Positions 42,454 through 64,000 of a DNA stretch of 64,000 nucleotides are shown in pieces. The notes beneath the pieces are model-generated. The model saw only the letters and a list, made by a program, of their open reading frames with translations. It was not told the origin of the DNA and made no database searches. A program made the position numbers and the translations under genes. Position 1 is the stretch's first letter. Each line of letters starts with the position of its first letter. The stretch comes from Flectonema sp. DT1601. Its lineage: Eukaryota; Euglenozoa; Diplonemea; Diplonemida; Diplonemidae. The DNA is taken from contig OZ025797.1 of NCBI GenBank assembly GCA_964019425.1, positions 1,085,777 to 1,149,776 of the forward strand. The letters run 5' to 3'.

Positions 42454-42724
42454 TGTTCTTAGTTTTGTCAGTATAAGTTTCCTGTAAAATGTAATAAATG
42501 GATATATGCAACGACAACGGACTTCATAGCCGGCAGAACCACATCAGAAAGTAGAAAGGAGAACGTTTTCTTTATTTCTTATTTTGTCTTTTGGGTAAAG
42601 GTTGGATAGTCGTTGGTTTGCGGTAGGTAGTCTTCCAATCAGGACGCTTCTTGTCCTTCGTCGCTCAATACGGAGACGGTAGCCAAAGACCACTGGGTTA
42701 CCGAGCTATGAAGCTCTACGGTCC
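42454..42724. other. Spacer between helicase gene and retroelement remains
   Basis: It holds the helicase 5' UTR and, from about 42560, sequence that is probably the 3' end of the adjacent minus-strand retroelement fragment. A small stem GAGCT/AGCTC is seen near 42702-42715. No gene was found. Confidence 0.5.
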
Positions 42725-44411: not shown

Positions 44412-46553
44412 CTAACTGCAGATTTTGTCTGCTTCTTCGTTTCCGACAATGCCACAGTGAGAAAAGACATGCTGGAAAATAAACTTTGTTTTGAATTTAT
44501 TGTTGAAAAATTCAATAAACTGCCAGATGCGGCTTCCTAGTCTCGTTTTCTGTTTTGTTCCCCCTTTTTCCAGTTCCATCAAGGCACTGGAGGAGTCTGA
44601 CACAAATAAAACTGACGCATTTTCCGGCGGTTTAAATTCCTTAAAAAGTAAAACAAAAGCGTTTTTGATCGCCATCATTTCAGCCCTAAAAGAGGTGCAG
44701 ATTATTCCTGCTTCACTTTTGTTTGTGAGAAATTCGTTTCCTTCGCTGTCTATGATGTACACACCAGCAGCACCGCGTTCTTCAACAACGGCACCATCGG
44801 TATATACCTCTAAGACTGGTTCATAATCTTTCCTTATTTCATTAAGAACAGCTTCACAAGCTTTTTTATTTTTTTTTTTGTCTTTTTTTTTTCTAACATG
44901 CATTTCTGGTTTAAAAACATTGAAATCATTTGAAAAACTCCATGGAGGATGAACGTAAATGGGATATTTCTTAAAACTGAGTGATAGAAGGTTGTGTTTT
45001 TTCAGAACATTCATTCCTAAACGAGTAAAAGAATCAATGGGTGTTGAGGATATTCTTTCAGGTGGAATAAAGACATTTAATAAAGGGGACGTGATTCGCG
45101 CCATTTTGGCGAACCATCTACCAGTTTCAAGTCTCAAATGGGTGTTGATACTTTGTTGTTGTGCCTCAAAAAAGATCTTATCTCTTGTTTCCCTTGTTGG
45201 TGGTAAGGCACCTAAAACATAGCACGCACCCCTAAGGTGTAAAGAGAGAAGCCTGTCCATGTGAATCTTTTTATACCTAACTTCAGGATAAAAAGCTTCA
45301 CACGAGTTTGTTATGACAGGTCGAATATACAAATCATACACCTCACGCAAAGTTGCAGTACACTGTCCCCATGCTTTTGATGCGACAAGCTTCAGATACC
45401 TTAAGCGAAGATTAACTCTTCTACAAATATACGAGATATGCTGTTTCCAATCGAGCTTGTTATCAAGGATCACCCCAAGAAGCTTGGCGCTATCAACACA
45501 TGGAACAATATTTTTTGTTAAATTTGAAGTAAAAGTGAAAGGTGTTTGTAGTGGGGAATTTGGGGAGTAGGGATAATACACAAGTTTTGTTTTGTCAGGC
45601 TCATAACTTACTTTTAATTTTAATTCGTTTAGATCCTTTTCAATCTCATTAAAGAAATATTTCGTTTTTGCCAAATGATAAGTAAAACCTTTCCCTTCAT
45701 CATCAACTACAAAAGCAATATCATCCGCATACTTAGCAACCGTAATATCTAGTCTCTCTGCTACTTTTTCAATATACAGAGTAAAAAGTAGAGCCGACAA
45801 AACTGTTCCTTGTGGAACACCAGAATAAACATTGTGGTAAGAACCTTTTTCATTATTAACAACAACCGCTGCTCTTCGTTTTTTAAGAAAGGCCTGAATC
45901 CAGGCTATAAAATGTTTTGGTATTCCAAGATCTACCATCCTTTGAAGGAGAAGATCATGGTTCACACTATTAAAAGCTTTTTCTATATCAAGAAGAACAA
46001 GGGCCGCTGACTTTTTTTGGTGTTTAAGAAATCTAAGTCTGTCCGTAACATATAGGATGTTTTCCCGGCAGGAACGCGTTTTTCGATAAGAAGTTTGGTT
46101 GAAACCAATACCGTCAGTTTTCTTTTCATTCGGTGATTGCATAAAATACGTAAGACGTTCCTTCACCATTCTTTCCATCAATTTCGCAATAAAAGGGGTG
46201 AGAGAGATCATTCTATATGAAGAGGGGAGGTTTGGGGGTTTTCCTTTTTTTAAAACAGGGATCCAGTGTGTGTCTTTCCAATCACTCGGGACAACAGAAT
46301 GTTTCCACGAATTGTTAAAAATCTTAAGTAAAATGTTTAGCATTCTAGGTCCCAAATGGTTAAGAAGAATACCTTGAACGCCATCTGGTGAATTCTTTTC
46401 CAGAGCCATTCCTCTCAATTGGATTCTAAGTTCATGTTGTGTAAATGGTGTAAAATCAGAAGGGTCTGTTTCTATTTTCTTTGTCTTTGTTTTTTCTTCG
46501 ATATTACCAACACGTTGTAAAAATTGATTATTGAAAATTGATGCTTTTTCCAC
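44412..46553 (-). CDS. LINE reverse transcriptase and RNase H segment
   Basis: 713 codons open. RT motifs: LVLLDIEKAFNSVNHDLLL (A), SGVPQGTVLSALLF (B), AKYADDIAFVV (C, YADD) and KLLGVILDNKLDWKQHI. RNase H motifs: EVYTDGAVVE, FRAEMMAIK, FVSDSSSALMEL and VFSHCGIVGNEEADKI. All catalytic positions appear intact. The frame ends almost immediately after the last RNase H motif, so the C-terminal part is missing. The first Met is internal to the element's long ORF; the upstream linker and endonuclease are in other frames. Confidence 0.88.
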   Translation of the reverse strand: MEKASIFNNQFLQRVGNIEEKTKTKKIETDPSDFTPFTQHELRIQLRGMALEKNSPDGVQGILLNHLGPRMLNILLKIFNNSWKHSVVPSDWKDTHWIPVLKKGKPPNLPSSYRMISLTPFIAKLMERMVKERLTYFMQSPNEKKTDGIGFNQTSYRKTRSCRENILYVTDRLRFLKHQKKSAALVLLDIEKAFNSVNHDLLLQRMVDLGIPKHFIAWIQAFLKKRRAAVVVNNEKGSYHNVYSGVPQGTVLSALLFTLYIEKVAERLDITVAKYADDIAFVVDDEGKGFTYHLAKTKYFFNEIEKDLNELKLKVSYEPDKTKLVYYPYSPNSPLQTPFTFTSNLTKNIVPCVDSAKLLGVILDNKLDWKQHISYICRRVNLRLRYLKLVASKAWGQCTATLREVYDLYIRPVITNSCEAFYPEVRYKKIHMDRLLSLHLRGACYVLGALPPTRETRDKIFFEAQQQSINTHLRLETGRWFAKMARITSPLLNVFIPPERISSTPIDSFTRLGMNVLKKHNLLSLSFKKYPIYVHPPWSFSNDFNVFKPEMHVRKKKDKKKNKKACEAVLNEIRKDYEPVLEVYTDGAVVEERGAAGVYIIDSEGNEFLTNKSEAGIICTSFRAEMMAIKNAFVLLFKEFKPPENASVLFVSDSSSALMELEKGGTKQKTRLGSRIWQFIEFFNNKFKTKFIFQHVFSHCGIVGNEEADKICS

Positions 46554-46627
46554 ATCATCTGTAACAAGTTTATCACCACAGGTGATTTCTCGAATTTCTT
46601 TAAGCCTTGATCTGCCATCAAGGCCTC

Positions 46628-46966
46628 TTATGTCTTCAAAAGCTTCAATAATAGACTTGTCTTTTTTAAGGCTTTTTTTAAACTGTTGATTCTTGGCATC
46701 AACGACTGTTTTTTTGAGTTCTTTTTTAAAGATGTAAAAATTGACTTTCCCTGTTGCGACAGATCTGTAAGATCATCCCGTTGGTCACAATGTGACTCGT
46801 TGAACTCATGAAACTTAGATGCAACCGTCGTGTTCCACCACTTCTTTGGTGACTTTCCTTTCAAATAAATCCTTGGTACAAAGATCCGTAGCGCATTTTT
46901 TAATTCTCTTATGAATTCCATTGATAATTTCTGGTTATCTTGAATCTTTTCAAGTCGCTTCGCCAC
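46628..46966 (-). pseudogene. Linker between endonuclease and RT of the LINE, out of frame
   Basis: This 112-codon frame has the basic, helical, Trp-containing composition (LKGKSPKKWWNTTV) typical of the segment between endonuclease and RT in LINE ORF2. It is in a different frame from both flanking domains, so the element carries frameshifts here. Confidence 0.65.
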
Positions 46967-49383: not shown

Positions 49384-50279
49384 CGCCATTTAAGTGTTTT
49401 ATCAATATTTAGTATTTTCATCATTATCAATCATCTCCTGGTTGGGTAACTGCACATCACTTTCGGTGTTGTCGCAGTGTCTCATCCAACACTCCTGTCT
49501 CCTTCTTCTCCTTTAAATTTCTCTTGAGGGCAGGCCTTCGGGCTGTTCAAGTGGTCTTTGACCACCGCTCTAGTTATATGCTCGATTCTTTGTTTTCCTT
49601 ATCGATGGTAGGAATGGTAACCGAATTAGCTTCATGTGTCCAATTTCAAGGACGCGTGACCATTTATTTTTTTTCCGTTGCCGCTCTTCTTACGTCCTCA
49701 GGCGGAGCCTACCTATGTTTCCCGTGTTTTCCAATTGTCAGACTTAAATCAAAAGAAAGTATAAAAGAAAGACAAAACAAAGAAGTGAAAAGAACAAAAA
49801 CAAAGTGTTTGGTAGCACAGACGAGTGTAACCAAAAAAAGAAAAGTTTTTTTTATTTATTTTTTTTTTTTTTTTTTTTTGAGGGAGGTGAGAGGCAAGTA
49901 TGGCAGGAGAGCAAACCCTCGGAACCAGCGATCCTTATGTTACATGAGTGTGCGCTAAAAAGATAAACTGCAACACAAGTTTTGGGCCGGTTTTCTAGGT
50001 CCTACCATATCTGTCGCCGAAGCGAAGAAAAGAAAAAGGAAAAAAAAAAACAATATTTGTGGTTGTGTTTGCGCTGATGGTTGCACTCCCACTTCCAGCG
50101 TGTTTTTTCTTTCTTCTTACATTTACATACAGTTTACATACAACTCTGTCTTCCTTTTCACTCTTCTTTTTTTTTTTTTTTTCATTTTTCTTTTAACATG
50201 TTTGCTTCTTTACATTTTTTACAAGTTCACTTCTTTACATTTAATTTTTTCCGTTCATTCACTTTCCGTTTCATGCTTC
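49384..50279. other. 3' flanks of two facing retroelements
   Basis: 49384-49840 is mixed sequence, probably the 3' UTR of the plus-strand fragment. 49846-49879 is a T-rich run, that is a poly(A) run on the minus strand, and may mark the 3' end of the giant minus-strand retroelement. 49880-50279 would then be its 3' UTR. A 25-bp segment near 49886-49910 resembles one inside the 585-bp insertion (28399-28424). Confidence 0.5.
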
Positions 50280-52020
50280 TCACATGGCATCGTTTTTCGA
50301 TCGCGATCCCCGTGATTTCCTTTTCCTCTTCTCTTTCCCACGCCGCGATCTCTCCAACAATCCGCAGCATTCAGCGTAGTCACACTTCACGCACATGACT
50401 ACCCGCGTTCCCTTCGCGATCCGCTCTCCACACCTATCACACCATCCCTTCGTCGGGTGTTTCACCGGATTCTTGATCGCTGCTTGCGGTATCTCCTTTC
50501 CGCACCCACACATCCCTACTGGGGGGCGGTCTTCTTGTGTCGGTGGGGAGCAGATCGAGCTCGAGTCTGACGTCATCTTGTCTGAGTCATGGTCCATGGT
50601 AGGCTCCGTGGTGGTTTCAGGCACAATATTTTTCTCGTGTGTGCTTGTTACCGCCTGTGAGACTTCCTTACCGTTCTCCTCCTTCCACTTTAACAATCTC
50701 CTCCCGACTTTTTCCTCACCTCTCACCCATCGGTAGGCCTCTTCGCTGGCTTCGGGGGGCAGGCGCTCCAGCCTCAGCGTTGATCCAAGTCGATGCGCCA
50801 TTCTCTGCGAGACCTCGATGTATCGTCGGTGTGACTCTACTGAGTGCTCGAGTGAGCCGTACGCCACTATTTCCTTCACTGCGTCTCCGTAACTTAGCAG
50901 CTGCGCCATCCCGATCCCTAACGCCTTACCCTCGCGGTTCGGCGAGCATTCCTTGAGGGGGAATCTCCACATGTGGATCACTTCACCGCCACTTACAACA
51001 CACGTTCTCGTCTCCCTCTGTGTTGCTGCGTAGAACAGTTCATAGATGGGCTTTTCAGAGTGCCATTCTATGAGCTCGATCTTCGCCCTCTTCTTCGAAT
51101 CTCTAAAAGCCGCTTCCGGTTCCGACTGTCCTCGCACTCCCTCCTCAGGCTCATGGATCGCACTTGGGCGCCATCCTATTCGGGGCTCACGTCCATGGTG
51201 GGGATCTGCCGATCCTTCCTTCGGCTCCTCGACTGGTTCCGCTGGCTTCGGTTTCTGTTCTACCTCTGTTTCGCCTGTCATCACTTGGCACACCCACTGG
51301 TAAGCTGTGTGCTTTACTTCGACAGGTAGGTCCGCCAGCCTCAACACTAGTCCTCGTGCCCTTACCACGCTACTTATCGCCCCGAATTTCTCCCACCGTT
51401 CTCTCGTCCACTGTTCCAAGGGTGCGTATGCTTGCACTTCCACGGGTCCCTCCAGGAGGCCCTTCCCTGTGACCCATTCCAGTGCCAATTCTAGTGCGGC
51501 CAGCATGGGGTCTTTTTCCTCTCCTGTGGTCTCATGCCACTTCTTCATCACTGGTCCTCCGCCACTCCGCACCAGGCACGCCCTTCCGGTTTTGCCTAAG
51601 AAAAGGTACACAGCTGGATGTGGTGGTGTTGGCTGCGTTAACCCTTTCGTGGCTCTGTGCTCTTCGACGTACTCCCGTGCTCTCCTGTCCGTGCAAAGCT
51701 TCTTCACCTTCCCACCTGGACAGCGTAGCACTTGCAGTGAGGCTTCACTCCATGTGCTGTACGTTCCTGGACGCCGTCCACACGGGACCGCGTACCGCCG
51801 ATTTCTGCGTGGGCCTTTTACTGGCTTGTCTGCTGTCTTATACTCTGGGTCAGTGCTTCTCAGGAAAGCCTCCGCCTCCTCTCCATTATTGAAGCCCTGA
51901 TAAACAGCGCAAGAGAGTCCCTTCGTCTGTTTCTCGGCCTCTGCCCAGCTATTCACGATGGTAGTGCGTCCCCTTCCCTTCGAGATAGCATAGAGCTTGA
52001 ACTTGCTCTCCATTCGCGTC
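50280..52020 (-). other. Hybrid-binding modules, RNase H-like regions and C-terminal zinc cluster
   Basis: FKLYAISKGRG...W.EAE..TKG...AVYQGF...EEAEAFL is a good RNase H1 N-terminal (hybrid-binding) module; RRYAVPCGRRPGTYSTWSEA is a second, weaker one. Two regions follow that look like RNase H folds (AVYLFLGKTGRACLV ... LAALELALEWV ... and PIYELFYAATQ ... GKALGIGMAQLL ...) but lack the acidic catalytic residues. The last about 60 residues have MCGCGKEI, CDRCG and CVKCDYAECC, resembling a ZZ-type zinc site, and a Lys/Arg-rich tail. Confidence 0.6.
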
Positions 52021-55000
52021 GCCGGTTGACTCCTCTGGCCTTTCGTTGTGTGTGCTCGTATTGTGACACGCGTGGCGTTCTTCTTCTCGCACCGACCTAG
52101 TGTCTTCACCGTCCTTAGCAGGTTCGGTGGGTTTTGGGTCCGTGTTGATTGTGGTACTTCACACTGTGTCCGTGACTTTTGCGTTCCAGGCCGTATGAGC
52201 ATTTCACTGTTCACTTGCCTATAATCCCTTCCTTCCATTCCGTGCTGCTCTGGGGGCGTTACCCTGACCACCTGTGGAGCTAGTCGTGGCATCATCGGAA
52301 CTTCATTTGCGCAGAACATCTCCTTTGTAGCTTGTCTTCGCAGGAATAGCACGTAAGGGACAGACGACAGCACCTCTCGCCAGCTTGTTGCTCGCTCCAC
52401 CTCATCGTCCTGGTACCTCCAGCCGCCCGGTGATAGGGTGAAAGACGTGTAGTGACCCGATCCCAGACACCCCTGATGGACCACCACAGCGGACACCCTA
52501 TAGTCGGCCTGTATCTTGCTGTTCCGCATCGACACTTGTTCTCCCAGCGCCATTTTCGTGGCATTCTCGTTCACAATGCATACGATCATCGTTTCCGGCG
52601 CCTCCATCAAGATCCTGCGCTCCTGCAAAGACCCCGTACCGCACAGTCCGCACACGTAGTCCTGTGGTATCGTCGTCGACTCCAGTGCCGACTGTAGGTC
52701 CCATCCCCGCAGTATCAGGCCGCAGTCCAGCTCGATTGATTGGCTCCCTCCGCCACAGCATATGCACGTGCGTTCTACTGCCACCATGCATGTGAAAGCG
52801 TTTGCTAAGAGGTCGCCTGGTCTTGCTCTTTCCTGCAGGTCCGACACTATGTGTAGTAGGGCTCCGTGGGCGTCCTGTTGTCCTCTTCCCATCCATTCTC
52901 TTGTGATCCTCGTTATCTCTCCTTGCGACCCACCTCCCTGCACCAGTGCTAGTGCGCACACTGTGCACCTCGTCCCGCATACGTGAGGGGTGTTCCGTGC
53001 CCGCTGGAAATCCACATGCGACCCCTTCAGTAGTGCCTGCAAGGTGGCGTTCAGGTAACACGAGTCTCCGAGGTTCGTCAGGCCCTCCATCCAGGTGGTC
53101 CGCGTCTGGATATTCGTCCCACCCCCTTGGCTCTGCGGTTCGGTGACGTCCGGGCCTCTGCTACCAAGACACGGGGCCGCTGGCGCTACCCGCGTGCAGA
53201 AAAGGTTTGATTCCGGTTCACAGTCCTCCATGAGTATATCACCCCCTTCATCCATTCCATACGCTAGCGGCTCGCTCGTTTCGGCAATCTCCCCTGTAAC
53301 TTCCTCCATTAGTTCCTGGGAGTTCGCCCCTTCCTGGCTCTCATAGTTCTCCATCTGTACATCAGCTTCTCCGTCTGTTCCACGCGCTGTCGGTTCGTCA
53401 TATCCCTCGCGGTCTTCCTCCCGAGCGTTTGCTTCCTGTGGTACCAGTGGCTCCCTCTTTTGTTGGGCCTCCTCTGGGTCTTGCTCTCCTTCCCACGGTG
53501 CTGTCTCCCACGTGGTCGGTCCTGTTGCGTAAAAGCCCAGTTTTAGACCTTGCTCCCTAGACGTCTTAGGTTCTGTCGGCTCCCTTCTGCTCTTCTGTGG
53601 GGCTGCTCCTTCTGAAACCAATCCATTCGCTTGCGTCTGTGCGCCCTCTGTCGGTTTCACAAGTGCATGCGGTTCTCCCTGCTCGGGATCACGCAACGGC
53701 TGCGTAGGCGTCCGCACGTCCTGGCTTGGTGTTGAAATAGACACCGGTGGTGAAAGGTTCCTCGCCGGCAGGTTCGACTCTTCTTTTACCGCAGGCGGCG
53801 CCTCCGGTTCTTTCGACCGCTCGGCTACTTTCACCGGGACCTGTAGCAAATCCTGTCCTGTTTCTTGTAGTTTTAATACGGACTGCTGGGGAGCCGGCGG
53901 TGCCTGTCGTCTATCCTGGTCCTCCGGTTGCTTTGACAGCGTCAATGGCACCGCACTCAGTCCCTGTGGCATCCGCTCGACATTTTCGTGGGGTTTCACA
54001 GGCGGCGGTTCCGATAGCGACAGGGATGTGTCCGAGTAATTCCCTCCTGCGTGCGATCCTGTCCCCGCCGACGGTTCGGTGACGTCTTTCGTCTGGTCGC
54101 TCCCGTCCATTCGCATTGGTTCCGTTGTTGAGCCTTCTGCCCGCTCTGGACTCCGCGCCTCAGACTTGAGCAGCTGGGGCGGCGGCGGCGCCTGTTGCCC
54201 ACCGTCCCCTTCGGAGCGGTTAGTTTGTACTGGTGGCGCTTCCTTCGTCTCCTGCGTCAGCTTCGCAATGTCTCCGTTTGATGCTGGCTCCAAAGTCTCG
54301 ACATTTCCGTGGGGTTTCACAGGCGGCGGTTCCGATAGCGACAGGGATGTGTCCGAGTAATTCCCTCCTGCGTGCAATCCTATCCCCGCCGACGGTTCGG
54401 TGACGTCTTTAGTCTGGTCGCTCCCGTCCATTCGCATTGGTTCCGTTGTTGAGCCTTCTGCCCGCTCTGGACTCCGCGCCTCAGACTTGAGCAGCTGGGG
54501 CGGCGGCAGCGCCTGCTGCCCACCGTCCCCTTTGGAGCGGTTAGTTTGTACTGGTGGCTCTTCCTTCGTCTCTTGCGTCAGTTTCGCAATGTCTCCGTTT
54601 GATGCTGGCTCCAAAGGTTTCGGCTCCGACGGGGATGGTGGTTGCTCTGCCCTCGGCTTTTCCACATGCAGAACTGGCTCTTCCCTCCTTTCTACCACCG
54701 CCTCCTTCGCTACTTGTGTTTTTTGGTCAAAGTACCGCCGCCTCGCTCGTCCCGATTTATCGTCCATTGGGCGTGGCTTCAGTGCTCGGCTTGTCCGCAT
54801 GCGGTGGTCTATGGAGAGGAGCTTCTCACTTAACAGACCCTCCGTTCCTTCGATTCTCGTATACACCCAATAAAGCGGCCCCGTGCCTGGTCCTTCTTTG
54901 CTCCGCACCCGTTCGTCGCTCACACATGCCCATCGGTTCCTCGGCGTTCTTACCATTGTCATTGCATGTCTCCCATTGCCACATACACTCCCCGTTAAAA

Positions 55001-58000
55001 CATAACTGCGTGGCCCGCTTTCAGTCTCTACCTGAAAGGCGGCCCTCGTCGTCTGTTCCACTCTCTCCTTCGCGAACAGGATCGGCGGCATCTCGGCGAA
55101 TCTCCACTGCACAGTGCAGTCTCTGTTTGGCGATCTACACCTCTCGCAGATCGTTGGACTCTTCGTCTCTTCTTCGAGCGGCCCTCCTAAGAGGATGATC
55201 TTTGCTGTCTCCGGCTTGGTCTTTGGGTCCAAGACCATGAAACTCAGCTGCACCTCCTGCCTCACAAACCCACATACACACCTGTGTGTCGCTTTCAATC
55301 TGGATTCGAACAGGCTCCTCAGAGTCCCCCCCCACACCGCGCATTCCTTCAGTGCCAGGTTATTTAGGATCTGTTTAAGGAAAGCCAATGGCGAACCTCC
55401 TGCCAAAGAATACCTTGTTATCTCCTTCCTGACCGTGTCCGCCGTGAAGTCCTGGATCGTGACTCGTGTCTCCTCCATTAACCCGTCCAGTCTTGGGTGG
55501 TCTTCTTTAGACATCTTCCACAGTACACAGGCGAGACATCCCCCTACGCACGTTTTATCCGCCGTTTCTTTCTCTCTCATCAACCCTATTAGTGGTGTGG
55601 CCCATATTAGGCTGCAGACTGTTGCTGCGGCGTAGCACGTCCCTCTCGTGTTCTCAAATCCCCTCACATCCGATGTGGCCCACTTGTCATCTTGTTTTCC
55701 CGACGCCTCGTAGGACAATAACGGCCGCTTCGTGATGTCTAGGTCCGCCATATCTCGCTCTAGCTGGGCCATCACATCTCTGCCATGTCCTTTGAACCTT
55801 GGAACACTTCCTGGCTTGCCTTCCGAAACTACCAGCTTCACCACCGGGGCGCCCGGCAACCGTCCTGTCTCTTTCGTCGTGGGTCCCGGTCCCTCAGCTC
55901 GTGAAGGCTCCGTGATTGCGTTCCCTCGGTCCGGAGTTGGTCCCTCCGCCGGCGTCCTCCCTCCGACTCCAGATTCCTCAGTTGACGGTTCCTCCGTTCG
56001 TGCCTCCCCCGGCTCCCCTGCCCCTCCGTGAGTCTGCTCCAGTTCCTTCGGCTCCTGCAGGGTGGACCTCGTCCCGCTTTCCGGGGCTTGCACCTCCCTC
56101 TGGTTGCCTGCCTTCTGTGTGCTATCTCTTGCAGCTTGGCCAATCTCCGGCGCAGCGTCCGGTCCGGTAGTCCTTCCCACACTCCGGTCGGCCTCCGACA
56201 GTAACCGCCCCGATTCGTCTGGCCCCTCCCCGATGCTCCCCATCTTGTCGACCAGGTCTTGTATCTCGTCTTCCCACTCATCCTCCTTGAATATCGGGGG
56301 TAGATCCGTACTGATAGGTGCTCCGTCGCCCCCCATCAGCAACTCCCCCCTATCTTCGACCGCTCTCGCCCAGCTATACGCTAGCGTTGTTGATATCTCT
56401 TTCGACAGTGCCCTCCACGCCTCTGCCGGTCTCCGTGTCCTCAGAGAAATCGCCTTGATGAAGGCCGCAGCTGCCTCATTCATGGCCCCGTCGCGCGTGA
56501 AGACTAGAGGAACGAAAGCTATTCCCTTCGAGCTACACTCCTCCCCGTATTTCTTCACCTTTTCCCTCTCCTTCGCCTGGATGACCCGCCTCGCATCCAA
56601 GTGCGATCCCCGGGACAGACTTGTCTGCGAGCATACCTCGATGACCGTCACGTCGTACGCCGCCGGTCTTCCTGTCCAGTTTCGTGTCGTTCCCGGCACT
56701 GCCTCGCTTACCAGGATGTCGGCCGGTTTCCTCCCTCCATCTAGGATTCGTTGCGGCTCCATTTCCACGGACATCCCCGTCACCCTTGCCTGCTTCGCCA
56801 GGAAATCCCTGACTAGGTTATGGCGTATGGTTGGCGTTGCCCCCCGGTTACACATCCCTGCGTGCACCCCCCGAGGGTCTAGCTTAGCGTTGCACCTCTT
56901 GCATAGCTGTCCCGCCTGTAAGACCTCCAGCCCTAAATGCGCCCTGATCGCGGTCCGGAAAATTTGTGACGGCATCACGGTTCCCGTGTCGCTTGCCTCC
57001 GCCAACCACGCACTCGCCCTCGGCATGGACACCGCTCTGAAGTGTGCAAGTCTTTCTCGGTCTCCGCTCCCCTTCAGGTCGTTGACCATCTTCGTTTTCA
57101 GCGAGGCGTCGATCTTCATTGACAGCTCTCTCTGTCGCACTACCTTATCGAGGTCCAGGTCGCACTCCTCCGAGGTCTCCAGCGTCAGCGCTTTACACAC
57201 CCCACTCCACTCCTCAGGGTCGACTTGGTATTGGGCGTCCAGCTCCACGCACAGTTTCCTCGTCGCAGTGGCCGACGCTGCTCTGCCCGCCGCCGCGTGT
57301 CTCCCACAGTTTCGCAGGCCCACCCCCCCTTCCCGCAAAGGTAGCTCCGCCTGTAAGTGCGCCCGCTCATCCATATCCCCACCCACGAGACCCCGCAACA
57401 CGCTTCTCACTACCGCATCGAAATCTGCCAGACCTGATCGCTGGTCCTCCAGGTACATTGACCTCATCAAGTATACCATCTTCCCATACGAATGGCAGTA
57501 TCGTAGCTGGGTCAGCGCTACGTGCCGATCCGGTAGCATCGTCAGTGACTCGCTTACTTTCTTCAGCTTCGTCACGTACTGCAGCAGGTATTCCTTGCAG
57601 TAGCTCCCACTCCCTACCGGTAGCTTGAGAATGGTGAAGTTTCCCTCGGACTCTTGTTTCACCTTCTCCAAGCCCCCCTTCGGTTCCAGGCCCACCCGCA
57701 GAGGTACGAATACGCACTTCGCCTCCTTTACCTTTAGCCCCAGGCTTGATGCCTTTTGAACCAGGTAGTCGTACGCCTTCGCTAGTTCGTCTACGCCTCC
57801 CATCAACACTCCATCGTCTAAGAACCAGAGGCTTCCATCCAGTCCCATCTTCTTGAGTCCCTCCAGTAGGCTTTTTATCCCGAGTGAGAAAAGGAGAGGC
57901 CCCGCCGGATCCCCCTGTTGGGCCCCCTCCCTCGACGGAATCGTGGTATCCTCAAAAAAGAGGCTCGTCGGTCTCTCGTAACACCACGATGCCAAAGGCA

Positions 58001-61000
58001 ACAGTTCCGGCAGCGTGGACGCCAGCTCACGCAGGAACACCGCCCTCGAGACACAGTTAAAAGCGTTCTCAAAATCAATGGTCAGGATTGCCTTGTTGGC
58101 CCCCCTGTTCCTCCTCGCGTAGTCCCGTACTATTGCGTACACCGCCTCCACCCCACTGGGTACCGCCACCCCCAGCTGTCCTCCTGGCTTTAAGAGGTTT
58201 GGTATCTTGGGCCTTATTTTTGCTAGCACTATCTTCCACGCCCACCTCCGCAGTGATTCCCCTACTGCTATTGGTCTATACCCGGTCGGCTCTTTCTTCA
58301 GCGCGATCAGGCGAGCTCCTGCCAACACCGGTGCCGCCTCATAAGGTACTTTCCCTCTTACCAGTAGCTCTAATGTAGTGCAGAGCGTTGGCATCAACCC
58401 TCGCAGTCCCGTGTCGCACGCTTGCTTCAGGAGCTCCACGCTTAATCCCGACGGTCCGGCCCCCGTGTCCTTCGGGAATGTCTTCAGCGATGCTAGTGCT
58501 TCCTCCGGCGACACTACTGTGTTCCCCGTTCTCACCCCCTCCAGGTCTATCTTCTCGTGCATGGGACTCGGGTGGATGGTCTGCATCGCCGCCAGGACTT
58601 CCGGCGCGTTCGGCGCTAGCCCGCTCGACACCAGGCATTTATTAGCCTGCGCGTACCTCCCTCTCCTGCTCAGGGCGCAGCACCGCTCATACCGTTCTCC
58701 CTGTGTCGTTTCCTTCTCCCGTCGTCTTTTGTTCCTCTTTGCCCTCGTGCTCCACATCGCTACATACTCTCCCCTCAGCCATCCTTCCAGCCTGCTCGTC
58801 AGCCTCTCCCTATGCGTCTCTGTCCCCTTCTCATCCTTCCGCACCGCCGGCGTTCCCAGGCATGCTTTCGGGAGCATCAATAGCAGCTTCCATGCCCGCG
58901 GGTCATTCCGCTGTGCTATCCGTTGCAATGTTGCCATGAGAGCTCTCGCCCACAACATCGTCAGCCTCTCGTCCAACTTTTTTGGCACCACTACCTGTGC
59001 CGCCCCTATCTCCTCCCACGACGGCAGCTCTCCAAGCTCTTTTTCGTCTGGCCACGGGGCGTTCTGAACCTCTTCCTCCCCCCCATCTAGCGCCATGGCT
59101 TCTCTACATCTCGGGTGGACCCCGGTGCTGCTTCCCGTCAGACACCCACACATCGTGCATGGTCGCACCCCCATCGCCTGCTGCTCCGCCTCCGTGAGAG
59201 GGCGATCTGACAGGAGGTGCTCCTTGTTCAAGTGGCCTAATAGTCCTCCCCAGTTCTTATATCCCTCAAATCGCTGGGCGCGTGATCGCGAGCATTCTCC
59301 CCTGGGGCAGTAGTAAGGCCCAGACCCCCTCAGTCCCGCGCTTGGTCCCGTCCCCAGGCCTATCCTCACCGCAGCCTCTTCAGCCGTTTGTTCGGAGAGC
59401 TTCAGCACATACACCGCCTCGGCTCTCTCCTCCACCCGATTGAGCATTTCGGCGTCCGCTTGGAGCACTGCCTCGTAGTGTTCTTTATCCAGCACTATCC
59501 ACAGCGGGATGTCCTCAGTCCTTCTCAGGGGCAGCATCTTTAGGAGTCTCCCCGCCTCCCACACTATGATCACTACTCCCATCTGGTCCGCCGCAACCTG
59601 CAGCGCTACGTTGTCCCCCCATCCCTTGTTCTCCAGTCGTACAGCGTAGTCCTCCTTGGCCAGTCCGTTGACGAACCATTGGTCCGTCCTCTCTTCACCT
59701 CTCATGTATTCCGCGAGTCTCTTCCGCAGCACCCTCGCACCCACTCGCCGATTCCATTCTCCCTTCGCCAGTAGGATTGCTCGGAACATACAGTCCCCAT
59801 CCCCCTTAGTCTTGGTTACACTGACTCTCGGGAACTCCCTCTGTAGCTCTATGGACGTGCTTGGCGTTGCTTCCCCCTCCACCTCTCTGGAGCTGCTCAA
59901 CTTCCTACACCTTGGGTGCATACTGGCCGTCCCCTTCATTGCTCGTCCGCAGTGTCCGCACGCCTTCATGCCGCAGTCAGCCCACTGGTCCTGTCCCAAT
60001 TGACCTTTATGCTTCCCATCTATGTGTGCCAGCAGGCCATTCTCCGTCCCAGACCACTCACACACTGGGCAGCTCGCACCCCCACCTCTCATCTCGTGGG
60101 GTTGCTGCTTGCAACTGCTTCTCGGCTTTGACGTCGACTGTTCATCTTCCGGCGCTCTCTCTTCCTTTGTTCGTCCCCCACTTTTCGTTTTCCGGGCCTT
60201 TTCCCGCTTCTTCTCTTGTTTCTTGTGCCATCGCGCTGGTGGACTCAGTCTCCACCTGTCGCTCGCCCGGTTTGGCCCCCTCACCTGTTGCGTGATTTCT
60301 TCCTGATACCTCTCGGTCTCATTCGTTCCCGCGCAACCCACTAGCTTTGGCTGGGGGAATAACCATATCGTGGGCTCCAGTTTTTGACATGCTAAAGACG
60401 GTAATATTCCTGTTGCCATATGTGTCCCTAGACCCGGCATATCCCTGAGTATCTCTAATTCCAACATGGCCCGCCACCTCTTTGTATACTCCTGTTCGTG
60501 TGCCATTGTCGTGTTCATCCCAGGCCCCCGCGTTGATGCCGTCTCCCTCCCTGCCCCTAGTGTGCGGTTTGTCTTCGACTGGCTGTGCCCCCTCCTCGTG
60601 TACGACACGAGCGTGGGTTCTCTAGGCCCCGTCTCCGCACACCTCCTCGGGGCTGCCCCTTCGCCAAACACATTGTGTCTACTCCTCGAGTACGGCACCA
60701 ACGCGAGTGCTCCAGGCCCAGCCTCCGCACAGCCCACCGGAGCCGCCCCTTCGCCAATCACGTTGTGTCCACTCCCCGAGTACGACACTGTGAGTGCTCC
60801 AGGCCCAGCCTCCGCACAGCTCCCCGGAGCTGTCCCTTCGCCAAACACCTTGTGTCTACTCCCCGAGTACAACACCGTGAATGCTCCGGGCCCAGCCTCC
60901 GCATAGCTCACCGGAGCTGTCCCTTCGCCAAACACGTCGTGTCTACCCCCCGAGTACAACACCGTGAGTGCTCCAGGCCCAGCCTCCGCACAGCTCCCCG

Positions 61001-64000
61001 GAGCTGTCCCTTCGCCAAACACCTTGTGTCTACCCCCCGAGTACAACACCGTGAATGCTCCGGGCCCAGCCTCCGCATAGCTCACCGGAACTGTCCCTTC
61101 GCCAAACACCTTGTGTCTACCCCCCGAGTACAACACCGTGAGTGCTCCAGGCCCAGCCTCCGCACAGCTCCCCGGAGCTGTCCCTTCGCCAAACACCTTG
61201 TGTCCACTCCCCGAGTACGACACCGTGAATGCTCCAGGCCCAGCCTCCGCGTAGCTCACTGGAGCTGTCCCTTCGCCAAACACGTCGTGTCCACTCCCCG
61301 AGTACGACACTGTGAGTGCTCCAGGCCCAGCCTCCGCGTAGCTCCCCGGAGCTGTCCCTTCGCCAAACACATTATGTCCACTCCTCGAGTGCGACACCGT
61401 GAATGCTCCAGGCCCAGCCTCCGCGTAGCTCACTGGAGCTGTCCCTTCGCCAAACACGTCGTGTCCACTCCCCGAGTACGACACTGTGAGTGCTCCAGGC
61501 CCAGCCTCCGCGTAGCTCCCCGGAGCTGTCCCTTCGCCAAACACATTATGTCCACTCCTCGAGTGCGACACCGTGAGTGCTCCAGGCCCAGCCTCCGCAT
61601 AGCTCACCGGAGCTGTCCCTTCGCCAAACACCTTGTGTCCACTCCCCGAGTACGACACCGTGAGTGCTCCAGGCCCAGCCTCCGCGTAGCTCCCCGGAGC
61701 TGTCCCTTCGCCAAACACCTTGTGTCCACTCCCCGAGTACGACACCGTGAATGCTCCAGGCCCAGCCTCCGCGTAGCTCACTGGAGCTGTCCCTTCGCCA
61801 AACACGTCGTGTCCACTCCCCGAGTACGACACTGTGAGTGCTCCAGGCCCAGCCTCCGCGTAGCTCCCCGGAGCTGTCCCTTCGCCAAACACATTATGTC
61901 CACTCCTCGAGTGCGACACCGTGAGTGCTCCAGGCCCAGCCTCCGCATAGCTCACCGGAGCTGTCCCTTCGCCAAACACATTATGTCCACTCCTCGAGTG
62001 CGACACCGTGAATGCTCCAGGCCCAGCCTCCGCGTAGCTCACTGGAGCTGTCCCTTCGCCAAACACATTATGTCCACTCCTCGAGTGCGACACCGTGAGT
62101 GCTCCAGGCCCAGCCTCCGCGTAGCTCACTGGAGCTGTCCCTTCGCCAAACACGTCGTGTCCACTCCCCGAGTACGACACTGTGAGTGCTCCAGGCCCAG
62201 CCTCCGCATAGCTCACCGGAGCTGTCCCTTCGCCAAACACATTATGTCCACTCCTCGAGTGCGACACCGTGAGTGCTCCAGGCCCAGCCTCCGCGTAGCT
62301 CCCCGGAGCTGTCCCTTCGCCAAACACCTTGCGTCCACTCCCCGAGTACGACACCGTGATTGCTCCAGGCCCAGCCTCCGCACAGCCCGCCGGAACTGTC
62401 CCTTCGCCAAACACCTTGTGTCTACTCCCCGAGTACGACACCGTGAATGCTCCGGGCCCAGCCTCCGCATAGCTCCCCGGAGCTGTCCCTTCGCCAAACA
62501 CATTATGTCCACTCCTCGAGTGCGACACCGTGAGTGCTCCAGGCCCAGCCTCCGCATAGCTCACCGGAGCTGTCCCTTCGCCAAACACCTTGTGTCCACT
62601 CCCCGAGTACGACACCGTGAGTGCTCCAGGCCCAGCCTCCGCGTAGCTCCCCGGAGCTGTCCCTTCGCCAAACACCTTGCGTCCACTCCCCGAGTACGAC
62701 ACCGTGATTGCTCCAGGCCCAGCCTCCGCACAGCCCGCCGGAACTGTCCCTTCGCCAAACACCTTGTGTCTACTCCCCGAGTACAACACCGTGAATGCTC
62801 CGGGCCCAGCCTCCGCATAGCTCCCCGGAGCTGTCCCTTCGCCAAACACCTTGTGTCTACTCCCCGAGTACGACACCGTGAATGCTCCGGGCCCAGCCTC
62901 CGCATAGCTCACCGGAGCTGTCCCTTCGCCAAACACATTATGTCCACTCCTCGAGTGCGACACCGTGAGTGCTCCAGGCCCAGCCTCCGCACAGCTCCCC
63001 GGAGCTGTCCCTTCGCCAAACACATTATGTCCACTCCTCGAGTGCGACACCGTGAGTGCTCCAGGCCCAGCCTCCGTCTCTGCCAGTTGGTCGAGCACGC
63101 TGTGCTCCCTCCTCGAGCGCGGCACAACCTCCAGTTCCTTCCCGTCTAGAATATCATCAACCTGTGAACGCCGGGAACAATCTTGTAGGTTTGGCTCGAC
63201 AAGCTTTATCATGCTCTCAGCACCATAATCCGCCAATGCTCGCCGTGGGATCTTCCGGACCACACTGTCCACCACCCGCATCCTCTCGCCGTGGGTATTG
63301 AGCTCCGACCTCTCCGCCTGCTGCTCTTTCGGGTCATAGATTCTCCCATCCGTGACAAACACCACTTCCCCTTTTCCCTCGCTCGTCAACTGGTAAAAGA
63401 CGTCCACAGCCATCTGGAGGTCACTCTGGAGCATCGAACCTCTGGAGTTGGAATCCGCACACAAACCGACGCCCGTACTTGACTTATCCGAAAGCATTCC
63501 ACCAGTACTAGTCCCCAACGGTGTCCTTCCTAACAGAGATCCGCGCTTATCCCTGTCTGTGAACCGGGATGGCTCCATCTGTGCTCCCTTCAATTCTACC
63601 ACCAATTCCTGTCCCATGTCCGTTTTGCCACCGTTCAGCGGTAGCAGCTTGTTCCAAACGCGCTGAGTCTCCCTCTGTCCATCAGAACCGTGTGAGTGCC
63701 GAGCGAAGGTATCGAACACCGATTCTACTCCATGTGCAAAGAGAACTAGATCCAGTGTAGGGTATCGCTCATGCTTGGTCACAGCACAGAGACACTCCAG
63801 GGCTGAAGAATTACGGAAGCACTTCATCCTTGCCCGGCATTCGCTACGGTCAAGGTCCTTGCTCTCTTTGCCAGCGTAGTCTGCCGAGCTACCGTTAAAA
63901 GTGCACCAAGGGCTCGTGTCATGGGCCGTCTTGCTCGTCGAACAGCGTTCAGCACCTCCTTGTGACGGGGTGAGTGAAAGATCCCAGTAACAATGCAGTT
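50280..64000 (-). CDS. Giant retroelement polyprotein: VWA, 29-aa repeats, OTU, RT, RLE, two USPs, hybrid-binding and RNase H-like domains (N-terminus beyond window)
   Basis: From the first in-window ATG (63825-63827) the product is 4515 aa, but the same frame has no stop up to base 64000, so the start is outside or upstream. Residue numbers here count from that ATG. Order: VWA-like (1 to about 200), 29-aa repeats (about 250-1080), C2H2 (about 1252-1273), OTU (C1346, H1450), C2H2-like (about 1506-1538), RT (about 1765-2100, FLDD at 2002-2005), CCHC plus restriction-like endonuclease (about 2305-2395), USP-like 1 (C2731, H2954), a duplicated Pro/Ser-rich linker, USP 2 (C3590, H3792), two RNase H1-type hybrid-binding modules, two RNase H-like regions, and a C-terminal zinc cluster with a basic tail. 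It is probably processed or multifunctional. I know of no described retroelement with this whole set, but I could not search. Confidence 0.9.
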   Translation of the reverse strand, partial: LHCYWDLSLTPSQGGAERCSTSKTAHDTSPWCTFNGSSADYAGKESKDLDRSECRARMKCFRNSSALECLCAVTKHERYPTLDLVLFAHGVESVFDTFARHSHGSDGQRETQRVWNKLLPLNGGKTDMGQELVVELKGAQMEPSRFTDRDKRGSLLGRTPLGTSTGGMLSDKSSTGVGLCADSNSRGSMLQSDLQMAVDVFYQLTSEGKGEVVFVTDGRIYDPKEQQAERSELNTHGERMRVVDSVVRKIPRRALADYGAESMIKLVEPNLQDCSRRSQVDDILDGKELEVVPRSRREHSVLDQLAETEAGPGALTVSHSRSGHNVFGEGTAPGSCAEAGPGALTVSHSRSGHNVFGEGTAPVSYAEAGPGAFTVSYSGSRHKVFGEGTAPGSYAEAGPGAFTVLYSGSRHKVFGEGTVPAGCAEAGPGAITVSYSGSGRKVFGEGTAPGSYAEAGPGALTVSYSGSGHKVFGEGTAPVSYAEAGPGALTVSHSRSGHNVFGEGTAPGSYAEAGPGAFTVSYSGSRHKVFGEGTVPAGCAEAGPGAITVSYSGSGRKVFGEGTAPGSYAEAGPGALTVSHSRSGHNVFGEGTAPVSYAEAGPGALTVSYSGSGHDVFGEGTAPVSYAEAGPGALTVSHSRSGHNVFGEGTAPVSYAEAGPGAFTVSHSRSGHNVFGEGTAPVSYAEAGPGALTVSHSRSGHNVFGEGTAPGSYAEAGPGALTVSYSGSGHDVFGEGTAPVSYAEAGPGAFTVSYSGSGHKVFGEGTAPGSYAEAGPGALTVSYSGSGHKVFGEGTAPVSYAEAGPGALTVSHSRSGHNVFGEGTAPGSYAEAGPGALTVSYSGSGHDVFGEGTAPVSYAEAGPGAFTVSHSRSGHNVFGEGTAPGSYAEAGPGALTVSYSGSGHDVFGEGTAPVSYAEAGPGAFTVSYSGSGHKVFGEGTAPGSCAEAGPGALTVLYSGGRHKVFGEGTVPVSYAEAGPGAFTVLYSGGRHKVFGEGTAPGSCAEAGPGALTVLYSGGRHDVFGEGTAPVSYAEAGPGAFTVLYSGSRHKVFGEGTAPGSCAEAGPGALTVSYSGSGHNVIGEGAAPVGCAEAGPGALALVPYSRSRHNVFGEGAAPRRCAETGPREPTLVSYTRRGHSQSKTNRTLGAGRETASTRGPGMNTTMAHEQEYTKRWRAMLELEILRDMPGLGTHMATGILPSLACQKLEPTIWLFPQPKLVGCAGTNETERYQEEITQQVRGPNRASDRWRLSPPARWHKKQEKKREKARKTKSGGRTKEERAPEDEQSTSKPRSSCKQQPHEMRGGGASCPVCEWSGTENGLLAHIDGKHKGQLGQDQWADCGMKACGHCGRAMKGTASMHPRCRKLSSSREVEGEATPSTSIELQREFPRVSVTKTKGDGDCMFRAILLAKGEWNRRVGARVLRKRLAEYMRGEERTDQWFVNGLAKEDYAVRLENKGWGDNVALQVAADQMGVVIIVWEAGRLLKMLPLRRTEDIPLWIVLDKEHYEAVLQADAEMLNRVEERAEAVYVLKLSEQTAEEAAVRIGLGTGPSAGLRGSGPYYCPRGECSRSRAQRFEGYKNWGGLLGHLNKEHLLSDRPLTEAEQQAMGVRPCTMCGCLTGSSTGVHPRCREAMALDGGEEEVQNAPWPDEKELGELPSWEEIGAAQVVVPKKLDERLTMLWARALMATLQRIAQRNDPRAWKLLLMLPKACLGTPAVRKDEKGTETHRERLTSRLEGWLRGEYVAMWSTRAKRNKRRREKETTQGERYERCCALSRRGRYAQANKCLVSSGLAPNAPEVLAAMQTIHPSPMHEKIDLEGVRTGNTVVSPEEALASLKTFPKDTGAGPSGLSVELLKQACDTGLRGLMPTLCTTLELLVRGKVPYEAAPVLAGARLIALKKEPTGYRPIAVGESLRRWAWKIVLAKIRPKIPNLLKPGGQLGVAVPSGVEAVYAIVRDYARRNRGANKAILTIDFENAFNCVSRAVFLRELASTLPELLPLASWCYERPTSLFFEDTTIPSREGAQQGDPAGPLLFSLGIKSLLEGLKKMGLDGSLWFLDDGVLMGGVDELAKAYDYLVQKASSLGLKVKEAKCVFVPLRVGLEPKGGLEKVKQESEGNFTILKLPVGSGSYCKEYLLQYVTKLKKVSESLTMLPDRHVALTQLRYCHSYGKMVYLMRSMYLEDQRSGLADFDAVVRSVLRGLVGGDMDERAHLQAELPLREGGVGLRNCGRHAAAGRAASATATRKLCVELDAQYQVDPEEWSGVCKALTLETSEECDLDLDKVVRQRELSMKIDASLKTKMVNDLKGSGDRERLAHFRAVSMPRASAWLAEASDTGTVMPSQIFRTAIRAHLGLEVLQAGQLCKRCNAKLDPRGVHAGMCNRGATPTIRHNLVRDFLAKQARVTGMSVEMEPQRILDGGRKPADILVSEAVPGTTRNWTGRPAAYDVTVIEVCSQTSLSRGSHLDARRVIQAKEREKVKKYGEECSSKGIAFVPLVFTRDGAMNEAAAAFIKAISLRTRRPAEAWRALSKEISTTLAYSWARAVEDRGELLMGGDGAPISTDLPPIFKEDEWEDEIQDLVDKMGSIGEGPDESGRLLSEADRSVGRTTGPDAAPEIGQAARDSTQKAGNQREVQAPESGTRSTLQEPKELEQTHGGAGEPGEARTEEPSTEESGVGGRTPAEGPTPDRGNAITEPSRAEGPGPTTKETGRLPGAPVVKLVVSEGKPGSVPRFKGHGRDVMAQLERDMADLDITKRPLLSYEASGKQDDKWATSDVRGFENTRGTCYAAATVCSLIWATPLIGLMREKETADKTCVGGCLACVLWKMSKEDHPRLDGLMEETRVTIQDFTADTVRKEITRYSLAGGSPLAFLKQILNNLALKECAVWGGTLRSLFESRLKATHRCVCGFVRQEVQLSFMVLDPKTKPETAKIILLGGPLEEETKSPTICERCRSPNRDCTVQWRFAEMPPILFAKERVEQTTRAAFQVETESGPRSYVLTGSVCGNGRHAMTMVRTPRNRWACVSDERVRSKEGPGTGPLYWVYTRIEGTEGLLSEKLLSIDHRMRTSRALKPRPMDDKSGRARRRYFDQKTQVAKEAVVERREEPVLHVEKPRAEQPPSPSEPKPLEPASNGDIAKLTQETKEEPPVQTNRSKGDGGQQALPPPQLLKSEARSPERAEGSTTEPMRMDGSDQTKDVTEPSAGIGLHAGGNYSDTSLSLSEPPPVKPHGNVETLEPASNGDIAKLTQETKEAPPVQTNRSEGDGGQQAPPPPQLLKSEARSPERAEGSTTEPMRMDGSDQTKDVTEPSAGTGSHAGGNYSDTSLSLSEPPPVKPHENVERMPQGLSAVPLTLSKQPEDQDRRQAPPAPQQSVLKLQETGQDLLQVPVKVAERSKEPEAPPAVKEESNLPARNLSPPVSISTPSQDVRTPTQPLRDPEQGEPHALVKPTEGAQTQANGLVSEGAAPQKSRREPTEPKTSREQGLKLGFYATGPTTWETAPWEGEQDPEEAQQKREPLVPQEANAREEDREGYDEPTARGTDGEADVQMENYESQEGANSQELMEEVTGEIAETSEPLAYGMDEGGDILMEDCEPESNLFCTRVAPAAPCLGSRGPDVTEPQSQGGGTNIQTRTTWMEGLTNLGDSCYLNATLQALLKGSHVDFQRARNTPHVCGTRCTVCALALVQGGGSQGEITRITREWMGRGQQDAHGALLHIVSDLQERARPGDLLANAFTCMVAVERTCICCGGGSQSIELDCGLILRGWDLQSALESTTIPQDYVCGLCGTGSLQERRILMEAPETMIVCIVNENATKMALGEQVSMRNSKIQADYRVSAVVVHQGCLGSGHYTSFTLSPGGWRYQDDEVERATSWREVLSSVPYVLFLRRQATKEMFCANEVPMMPRLAPQVVRVTPPEQHGMEGRDYRQVNSEMLIRPGTQKSRTQCEVPQSTRTQNPPNLLRTVKTLGRCEKKNATRVTIRAHTTKGQRSQPATRMESKFKLYAISKGRGRTTIVNSWAEAEKQTKGLSCAVYQGFNNGEEAEAFLRSTDPEYKTADKPVKGPRRNRRYAVPCGRRPGTYSTWSEASLQVLRCPGGKVKKLCTDRRAREYVEEHRATKGLTQPTPPHPAVYLFLGKTGRACLVRSGGGPVMKKWHETTGEEKDPMLAALELALEWVTGKGLLEGPVEVQAYAPLEQWTRERWEKFGAISSVVRARGLVLRLADLPVEVKHTAYQWVCQVMTGETEVEQKPKPAEPVEEPKEGSADPHHGREPRIGWRPSAIHEPEEGVRGQSEPEAAFRDSKKRAKIELIEWHSEKPIYELFYAATQRETRTCVVSGGEVIHMWRFPLKECSPNREGKALGIGMAQLLSYGDAVKEIVAYGSLEHSVESHRRYIEVSQRMAHRLGSTLRLERLPPEASEEAYRWVRGEEKVGRRLLKWKEENGKEVSQAVTSTHEKNIVPETTTEPTMDHDSDKMTSDSSSICSPPTQEDRPPVGMCGCGKEIPQAAIKNPVKHPTKGWCDRCGERIAKGTRVVMCVKCDYAECCGLLERSRRGKEKRKRKSRGSRSKNDAM
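52340..55690 (-). other. Two USP-type ubiquitin protease domains separated by a disordered linker
   Basis: USP 2 is clear: GLTNLGDSCYLNATLQALL (C3590), GQQDAHGALL, two CxxC pairs, GSGHYTSFTL (H3792), then a WRYQDDEV segment and VLFLRR. USP-like 1 is more divergent: GFENTRGTCYAAATV (C2731), a CVCG and CERC zinc pair, and GNGRHAMTM (H2954) followed by a Trp...Asp segment. Both keep Cys and His. The linker is Pro/Ser/Glu-rich and contains a tandem duplication. Confidence 0.8.
53977..54618 (-). repeat. 321-bp tandem duplication in the inter-USP linker
   Basis: Two copies (53977-54297 and 54298-54618), each encoding 107 aa that include EPASNGDIAKLTQETKE and NYSDTSLSLSEPPPVKPH. They differ at a small number of positions and the frame is maintained. 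Confidence 0.9.
56630..58540 (-). other. Reverse transcriptase and restriction-like endonuclease core
   Basis: RT motifs: GAGPSGLSVELL, ARLIALKKEPTGYRPIAVG, LTIDFENAFNCVSR (motif A Asp), QQGDPAGPLLFSLGI (motif B), WFLDDGVLMGG (motif C). After the thumb comes a CxxC...H...C knuckle (CKRC...HAGMC), then RHNLVRDFL, KPADILV and YDVTVIEV, matching the PD-(D/E)xK restriction-like endonuclease seen in R2, NeSL, CRE, Hero and similar elements. All catalytic positions look intact. Confidence 0.85.
59210..60075 (-). other. C2H2 - OTU protease - C2H2 segment
   Basis: A first finger (CPVCEWSG...HIDGKH) and a Cys/His cluster (CGHCGRAMKG...H..C) precede an OTU-type cysteine protease: GDGDCMFRAIL with nucleophile C1346, then LDKEHYEAV with H1450 about 100 residues later, the usual OTU spacing. 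A second finger (CPRGEC...HLNKEH) and another CTMCG...H..C cluster follow. Paired zinc fingers ahead of an RT are typical for target DNA recognition in RLE-type elements. OTU enzymes cleave ubiquitin chains. Confidence 0.8.
60640..63078 (-). repeat. 87-bp tandem repeat, about 28 units, coding for a 29-aa repeat
   Basis: The consensus protein unit begins AEAGPGALTVSYSGSG and continues with HxVFGEGTAPxSY. I counted 28 recognisable units and a decayed one at the 3' side. Units fall into a few subtypes (SHSRSGHN, SYSGSGHD, SYSGSGHK, LYSGGRHK) arranged in repeated higher-order blocks, so the array grew by copying blocks of several units. The frame is kept throughout. The period also keeps the opposite strand open, giving an 854-codon artefact. 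Confidence 0.95.
63228..64000 (-). other. VWA-like N-terminal domain of the polyprotein, spanning the first in-window Met
   Basis: LDLVLFAHGV (beta strand), GGKTDMGQEL (position of the MIDAS Thr) and VVFVTDGRIYD (MIDAS Asp followed by Gly) follow the von Willebrand A order. The first MIDAS motif (DxSxS) would be expected about 40-50 residues before LDLVLF. In the open frame upstream of the ATG there is FNGSSAD, an Asn-for-Asp variant, followed by helix-like sequence. Translation should therefore start upstream of the ATG at 63827. The metal site may be impaired. Confidence 0.55.

Follow-up and report, generated by a model that had tools for sequence, protein, structure and literature searches.

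Is a retroelement that carries three domains of the ubiquitin-protease type in one reading frame a genuine mobile unit, and what might it gain from them? The question is raised by the window, the whole stretch of 64,000 nucleotides of the Flectonema sp. DT1601 genome that we analysed, which lies on contig C18. The preliminary description had proposed a single frame of more than 4500 residues joining an RLE-type reverse transcriptase (RT) to an OTU domain and two USP-type domains, and this arrangement was recovered in a frame of 4572 codons. The domain order runs from zinc fingers through OTU, RT, a CCHC knuckle with the restriction-like endonuclease (RLE), a diverged USP-like domain and a typical USP to two RNase H1 N-terminal (RNase H1-N) domains and a C-terminal zinc finger. 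Residue i of the frame starts at position 63998-3(i-1), with the stop codon at 50280, and the features are as follows.

50280..63998, minus strand: single open frame of the retroelement, 4572 codons in the stop-to-stop ORF listing, open at the window edge
60584..63076, minus strand: 28.6 tandem copies of an 87-bp unit, encoding 29-residue repeats in the N-terminal part (tandem-repeat scan and translation)
59904..60071, minus strand: N-terminal C2H2-like zinc-finger region, residues 1310-1365 (translated sequence inspected by eye)
59454..59825, minus strand: OTU domain, residues 1392-1515, with Cys1403 and His1507 (Pfam OTU)
57669..58511, minus strand: reverse transcriptase domain, residues 1830-2110, with FLDDG at 2059 (Pfam RVT_1)
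56439..56918, minus strand: CCHC knuckle (2366-2383) and restriction-like endonuclease (KPAD at 2424)
54849..55676, minus strand: first USP-like domain, residues 2775-3050, with Cys2788, CxC and CxxC finger cysteines and His3011
53976..54616, minus strand: 321-bp tandem duplication, two copies with 96% matches, in the linker between the USPs
52329..53096, minus strand: second USP domain, residues 3635-3890, with Cys3647 and His3849 (Pfam UCH)
51669..52007, minus strand: pair of RNase H1 N-terminal domains, residues 3998-4110 (Pfam Cauli_VI)
50364..50531, minus strand: C-terminal Cys-rich, zinc-finger-like region, residues 4490-4545 (by eye)
49846..50279, minus strand: 3′ UTR with a poly(A) tail at its end; copies cease to be homologous near 49871

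The start codon of the frame lies outside the window, where the contig continues with 2500 bases of N; a frame length of 5423 aa for the window copy counts these Ns, and the frame lengths on C18 and C28 likewise include N runs. Related copies in the genome were sorted into subfamilies, to which we assigned the letters A to E, with the window copy in A. In the A copy C24, the first in-frame ATG stands 158 codons ahead of the point that corresponds to residue 1 of the window frame, from which the window copy would be ~4730 aa at full length, a figure taken from C24 and not from a direct reading, and may be among the longest single LINE open frames. Exactly 2500 N adjoin the 5′ part of two A copies (L039:1-2500 and L040:23-2522), as either a gap in the assembly or a withheld stretch.

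Elsewhere in the window, three ferric-reductase-like frames stand in a row on the minus strand (18126-22364, 25562-27736 and 30365-33250), all with tandem repeats and the first with a collagen-repeat match. They are joined on the same strand by a 2479-aa frame (35104-42543), in which other AAA stretches accompany a helicase-type AAA_11/AAA_12 region, and by a second RT frame of 786 aa with an RNase H domain (44412-46772), ~3 kb from the 3′ end of the element. Rfam (at the gathering score) and tRNA scans of the window gave no match. Another LINE family of the genome (L008:124-147) carries DVERNPGP near the N-terminus of its frame, which we take to be a 2A-like motif.

The RT matched RVT_1 at residues 1901-2098 (E 7.7e-13), above the Pfam curated cut-off, and an RT profile built from four subfamily sequences found R2 retrotransposon proteins best (E 4.7e-15), with LINE-1 at ~1e-6 and group II intron RTs at ~0.01. 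A second, weak stretch of the R2 alignment spans the CCHC/RLE region (i-E 15). No Pfam model matched the RLE in the frame; in the four-sequence alignment of this region, columns C560, C563, H573, C577, P619, D621 and D643 are invariant, and the K-P-x-D ... D arrangement, PD-(D/E)xK-like, is presumably the signature of a restriction-like endonuclease. An RT of the non-LTR type and a downstream CCHC plus PD-(D/E)xK-like endonuclease, both marks of the R2 group, are thus found together, and by RT and predicted RLE the element is near the R2-type non-LTR retrotransposons. Like R2 (R2Bm, R2Tg and kin), it has zinc fingers before the RT, and CCHC and RLE after it, in one ORF; R2 elements are not known to carry a protease, USP or RNase H1-N domain. 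R2 is described as inserting into 28S rRNA genes, whereas the 3′ flanks of this element are mostly unrelated after the poly(A).

The OTU domain matched at residues 1398-1483 (E 1.1e-7), above the Pfam curated cut-off, with the codons of C1403 and H1507 confirmed and catalytic Asp, Cys and His all present. Its four-subfamily profile found OTUD5 (E 2.5e-12) and OTUD3 (5e-11) and, more weakly, viral OTU domains. OTU was read in subfamilies A, B, C, D and E, that of B alone falling just below the Pfam cut-off (22.3 vs 23.3 bits).

The second USP likewise exceeds the Pfam curated cut-off (UCH at 3639-3885, E 1.2e-14) and has the profile match, Cys box, finger cysteines and His box of a USP (peptidase C19). 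A profile of four sequences matched 112 distinct PDB sequences at E <=1, with USP36 best (E 8.7e-24), and the best 60 of these 112 are all named ubiquitin or Ubl carboxyl-terminal hydrolases. This domain is present in subfamily groups A, B, C/E and D, its second CxxC pair being altered in D.

The first USP-like domain stayed below the Pfam cut-off that OTU and the second USP exceeded, so that the Pfam check of the preliminary description was borne out for those two domains, while the first is supported by profile comparisons only. UCH_1 matched it at E 0.056 in the whole protein and at E 0.00073 when isolated (19.7 bits vs a cut-off of 22.2), and the subfamily-B homologue had no Pfam match. 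A profile resting on two distinct sequences (A and B) gave seven PDB matches at E <=10, six of them USPs (best E 0.0036); the domain as a single sequence gave three PDB matches, all USPs and all at E >1. Aligned to the second-USP profile with hhalign, it matched over 241 columns (probability 88, E 2.8e-6 for this single comparison), with Cys and His in register and finger cysteines common to both. The second-USP profile in turn partly matches the first domain at its Cys-box end (i-E 4.2e-4, among 87 proteins), and both a Cys box and a His box are present. Single-sequence AlphaFold2 was uninformative here (pLDDT 33), because the well-supported second USP, run as a control, scored equally poorly (pLDDT 36). 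Given these observations, the first diverged domain is very probably of the USP type. It occurs in 6/6 near-complete A copies and 3/3 near-complete B copies, and among 18 matching rows, fragments included, solely in A and B.

Several parts of the protein absent from the earlier account were found here, namely the RNase H1-N pair, the C-terminal zinc finger and a hydrophobic N-terminus. The RNase H1-N pair scores above the Pfam curated cut-off, best at 4001-4045 (E 4.3e-18); in RNase H1 this domain binds RNA/DNA hybrids. The stretches after the pair look alike by eye to RNase H, a candidate that we dropped: six of six were without a Pfam match, and their profiles gave PDB matches to unrelated proteins (E 0.69-0.81). 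The C-terminal Cys-rich region is also present in B and E, with 43% of aligned residues identical to B, and in the N-terminal zinc-finger region 38% of aligned residues are identical between A and B over 1305-1370. A Glyco_hydro_11 match over the 29-residue repeats (27.7 bits, cut-off 27) was taken as a composition artefact, and an NCBIfam scan of four proteins gave nothing useful.

At the N-terminus, the A copy C24 has an A-rich leader, followed by MMYHVMWLACVFAGSVTA at the first in-frame ATG; D starts MEKTMLLCGYVLLWALLSGTRA, C/E MLINPCRMLPPISLLSLSILLSLLSSH and B MASALACLLAGMSKVHT. Compared with 35-residue pieces starting from other Met residues, those at least as hydrophobic numbered 1/56 in A, 1/106 in B, 0/24 in C, 0/37 in D and 0/39 in E, and combining these Met ranks by Fisher's method for A, B, D and E gave p 3e-4; C was omitted, since it is not independent of E. 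When every other 35-residue piece is considered, 48/3034 in A and 139/4438 in B were at least as hydrophobic, and none in C, D and E. Ranked by 19-residue windows, however, the N-terminus leads in C and E alone; it comes third in D and fourth in A, and in B it is missing from the top five. The highest such segment in the five subfamily proteins lies at residues 515-533 of the B protein (Kyte-Doolittle mean 2.11). A signal or membrane segment at the N-terminus is only a lead; if used, it would send the protein to the ER, which would be a misfit with a nuclear role without further steps.

The genome searched comprised 89.5 Mb in 92 contigs. With the RT as query, we found at least 62 matches (61 of 296 candidates scored), of which 35 are near-complete, that is, extend from query residue <=23 to >=683 of 727. 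In 32 of the 35 near-complete matches listed, by hand tally, the second USP lies in the same open frame as the RT (A 6/6, B 3/3, C 2/3, D 18/18, E 3/5). Six copies, that of the window included, share 99.8-100% identity across 5181 bases, and the 5′ starts of copies C17, C21 and C25 all differ. A 371-base query from the 3′ end gave at least 51 matches, 29 of them full-length (40 of 73 candidates scored), and all 20 3′ junctions drawn from the better of these matches carry at least eight A, then mostly unrelated sequence. The copies thus share a 3′ end and are variably 5′-truncated, as in the R2 group. No fixed target site emerged from the 20 3′ junctions, nor from the window copy, C21 and C17, and no target duplication of >=8 bases adjoining both ends was present in C21 or C17, the two copies tested; C17 has a single stray 8-base match that does not adjoin both ends. 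Four A insertions (L056, L063, L067 and C17, which is L051) have one common 3′ flank, either a repeated target or segmental copies, and some insertion sites, as we read them, lie inside other family copies, in the A-run of a B 3′ UTR, the leader A-run of C/E, and the USP regions of A and D. Based on the 3′ junctions, 5′ ends and flanks of the copies, the element most likely spreads through RNA by target-primed reverse transcription and has no fixed insertion site. Its sequence marks it as a non-LTR retrotransposon of the RLE type that has an R2-like RT and a poly(A) tail and was active recently.

Subfamily D is the compact form, with a frame of ~2885 aa and 283 bases between the RT/RLE match and the USP match, and keeps OTU and USP. 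Between C (L052/L023) and E (L053/L054), the sequence between about -600 and +1000 relative to the frame start is 96-99.5% identical, and beyond it 82-93.5%; dS is 0.04 in the N-terminal part vs ~0.5 downstream, which suggests an exchange of 5′ modules between these two subfamilies.

The domains also bear the marks of coding constraint. Between the sister subfamilies C and E, dN/dS (NG86) is 0.12 for OTU, 0.30 for the second USP, 0.03 for RT and 0.04 for RLE at dS 0.48-0.65; between A and B it is 0.22 for the first USP, 0.33 for the second and 0.30 for OTU, at a dS of 1.8-2.8 that is near saturation. OTU and both USPs are 42-45% identical between A and B, whereas the linkers after the RLE, between the USPs, after the second USP and at the C-terminus are 12-26% identical. 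Because dN/dS is below 1 and domain identity exceeds that of the linkers, the OTU and USP domains appear to be under selection at the protein level, which is looser on the second USP than on OTU, RT and RLE. The preliminary description had placed Cys and His in each protease-type domain; they are indeed there (C1403/H1507, C2788/H3011 and C3647/H3849), and these columns are invariant in the aligned OTU, first USP and second USP sequences. In addition, nine of nine further second-USP copies keep Cys and His, one of them (L078) with an internal stop. Anatomy, mobility and coding constraint of the element are thus read from the DNA itself.

To place the element among known proteins, we searched proteins of 0.55-1.75 times the query length, scoring the candidates that shared most words, a range outside which giant relatives lie. 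Retrieved first were P0002 from A (3746 aa), P0003 from D (2040 aa), which lacks the OTU end, and weaker RT relatives, followed by 77 RT-profile proteins. P0002 (ENA) has precomputed OTU, RT, USP and RNase H1-N domains and may come from the same assembly. Among 87 proteins, the OTU profile found P0012 and P0034 beside two A proteins, and in this length-limited set the USP profiles matched only A and D proteins, so that the lack of further USP-bearing relatives counts for little. P0012 (1223 aa; RT 36% identical to that of the window over 94% of the query; OTU profile i-E 5.1e-9) and P0034 (1158 aa; RT 40% identical over 51% of the query; OTU profile full-sequence E 9.3e-8) resemble the element in RT and OTU but had no match to the USP profiles. 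In P0009, an OTU-like stretch was seen by eye only, with Pfam and the OTU profile reporting nothing.

An RT tree of 72 of 89 rows kept by coverage, made in quick mode, midpoint-rooted and with several long branches, placed A to E, P0011 and P0012 in one seven-row clade (SH-aLRT 97), with A/B and C/D/E as separate groups; P0034 (by coverage) and NeSL, Utopia and CRE reference RTs are not in the tree, and the label 'OTU only' on P0009 was given by eye. The RT phylogeny called for earlier united the subfamilies with these two relatives. Either a single USP gain ahead of the A-E split or two gains would fit the data, and OTU may be older.

Protease-type domains have precedents in mobile elements. 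Passages of PMC4640811 describe a Ulp1-bearing RLE element with a single protease domain, of the ubiquitin-like-protease class, N-terminal to the RT. NeSL/Utopia elements resemble this frame as RLE elements with such a domain ahead of the RT, but it is Ulp1 there, neither OTU nor USP, and their U2 or spliced-leader targets were not seen here; a Pfam scan of the 4572-aa frame gave no Ulp1 match. In passages of PMC2836005, OTU or Ulp1 occurs in Ginger1 DNA transposons, OTU in Helitrons, and a Trichomonas vaginalis protein combines Peptidase C19 (USP-type) with a transposase_11 domain; Helentrons, with passages of PMC4067079 as a further source, belong to the same set. Similar to our element, all of these are mobile-element products with an OTU, Ulp1 or USP-type domain, yet they have a transposase or Rep/helicase and no RT, and these passages describe no combination of OTU and USP. 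Passages under OTU or ubiquitin in PMC5348765, PMC6338049 and PMC6875170 hold nothing on protease domains in non-LTR elements. The full-text literature searched, with most subscription journals and Repbase outside its scope, yielded no description of a USP in a non-LTR element, in keeping with the earlier claim that OTU plus two USPs with RT and RLE is undescribed. What we count as new is the joining of OTU and one or two USPs in a retrotransposon of the RLE type, OTU or Ulp1 as such being already known from mobile elements.

Taking these observations together, we propose that the single giant ORF of an R2-like element gained OTU and, in the lineage of this genome, one or two USPs. The polyprotein would bind its own mRNA, with the zinc fingers and the RNase H1-N pair as nucleic-acid-binding parts, the RLE would nick DNA, and the RT would copy the RNA by target-primed reverse transcription. 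OTU and USP would strip ubiquitin, or a ubiquitin-like tag, from the particle of the element or from host proteins located there, and the particle or insertion intermediate might thereby escape proteasomal or ubiquitin-signalled host control. The joint retention of two deubiquitinase families with invariant Cys and His, together with constraint and mobility, was counted in favour of this explanation as a whole, to which we give a probability of about 0.6; enzymatic activity, substrate and benefit of the OTU and USP domains are what we infer within it. A wider version, in which a lineage armed with OTU and then with one or two USPs against ubiquitin-based host control also uses the signal-like N-terminus to make part of the polyprotein membrane-bound or secreted, is tentative and somewhat doubtful.

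No feature of the sequence separates deubiquitination from removal of other ubiquitin-like tags or from peptide processing, and papain-like proteases process polyproteins in some RNA viruses. OTU and USP could in that case cut the long product into its working parts, and deubiquitination would be a side activity or lacking altogether. A product of more than 4500 residues with long, poorly conserved linkers may plausibly be divided to some extent, and the A to E polyproteins have no 2A motif. However, counts of LxGG/IxGG, a ubiquitin-tail-like cleavage signature, fall within the range of shuffled sequences (count, with shuffle mean and maximum: A 8, 5.1 and 12; B 3, 4.4 and 11; C 3, 1.6 and 6; D 3, 2.6 and 8; E 4, 1.8 and 7), and the short subfamily D still keeps both OTU and USP, which makes a processing role unlikely in our view.

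Alternatively, the domains may no longer be enzymes and may serve as ubiquitin-binding or scaffold modules. The divergence of the first USP below the Pfam cut-off would fit such a loss, as would the dN/dS of the second USP, the least constrained catalytic domain tested between C and E (0.30), a value that would also fit fast evolution or partial decay; moreover, the second USP of subfamily B has N where A has D, at what is presumably the third catalytic residue. The invariant Cys and His columns and their retention in all nine further second-USP copies speak against it, and we regard scaffold modules as quite improbable. The 2500 N bases next to the window might instead point to an assembly fusion, or to chance read-through of a retroelement into a host gene, the former a doubt that the preliminary description itself had raised. 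Both were countered by the further copies in the genome, near-identical in A and standing at many loci with differing 5′ truncations and poly(A) tails, by the architecture repeated in three B copies and in subfamilies C/E and D, and by P0002 with OTU, RT, USP and RNase H1-N, though perhaps from the same assembly; a fused or read-through frame is hardly credible.

Tag removal by OTU and USP in a mobile RLE element, our preferred reading, bears on a wider problem, as protease-type domains occur singly in mobile elements of several kinds, where their roles are unproven. With natural variants that carry different sets of OTU and USP domains side by side in one genome, the question why transposons carry ubiquitin-type proteases becomes directly testable. 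If true, this reading would be a hint that some mobile elements bring tools of their own to bear against the protein-tagging system of the host.
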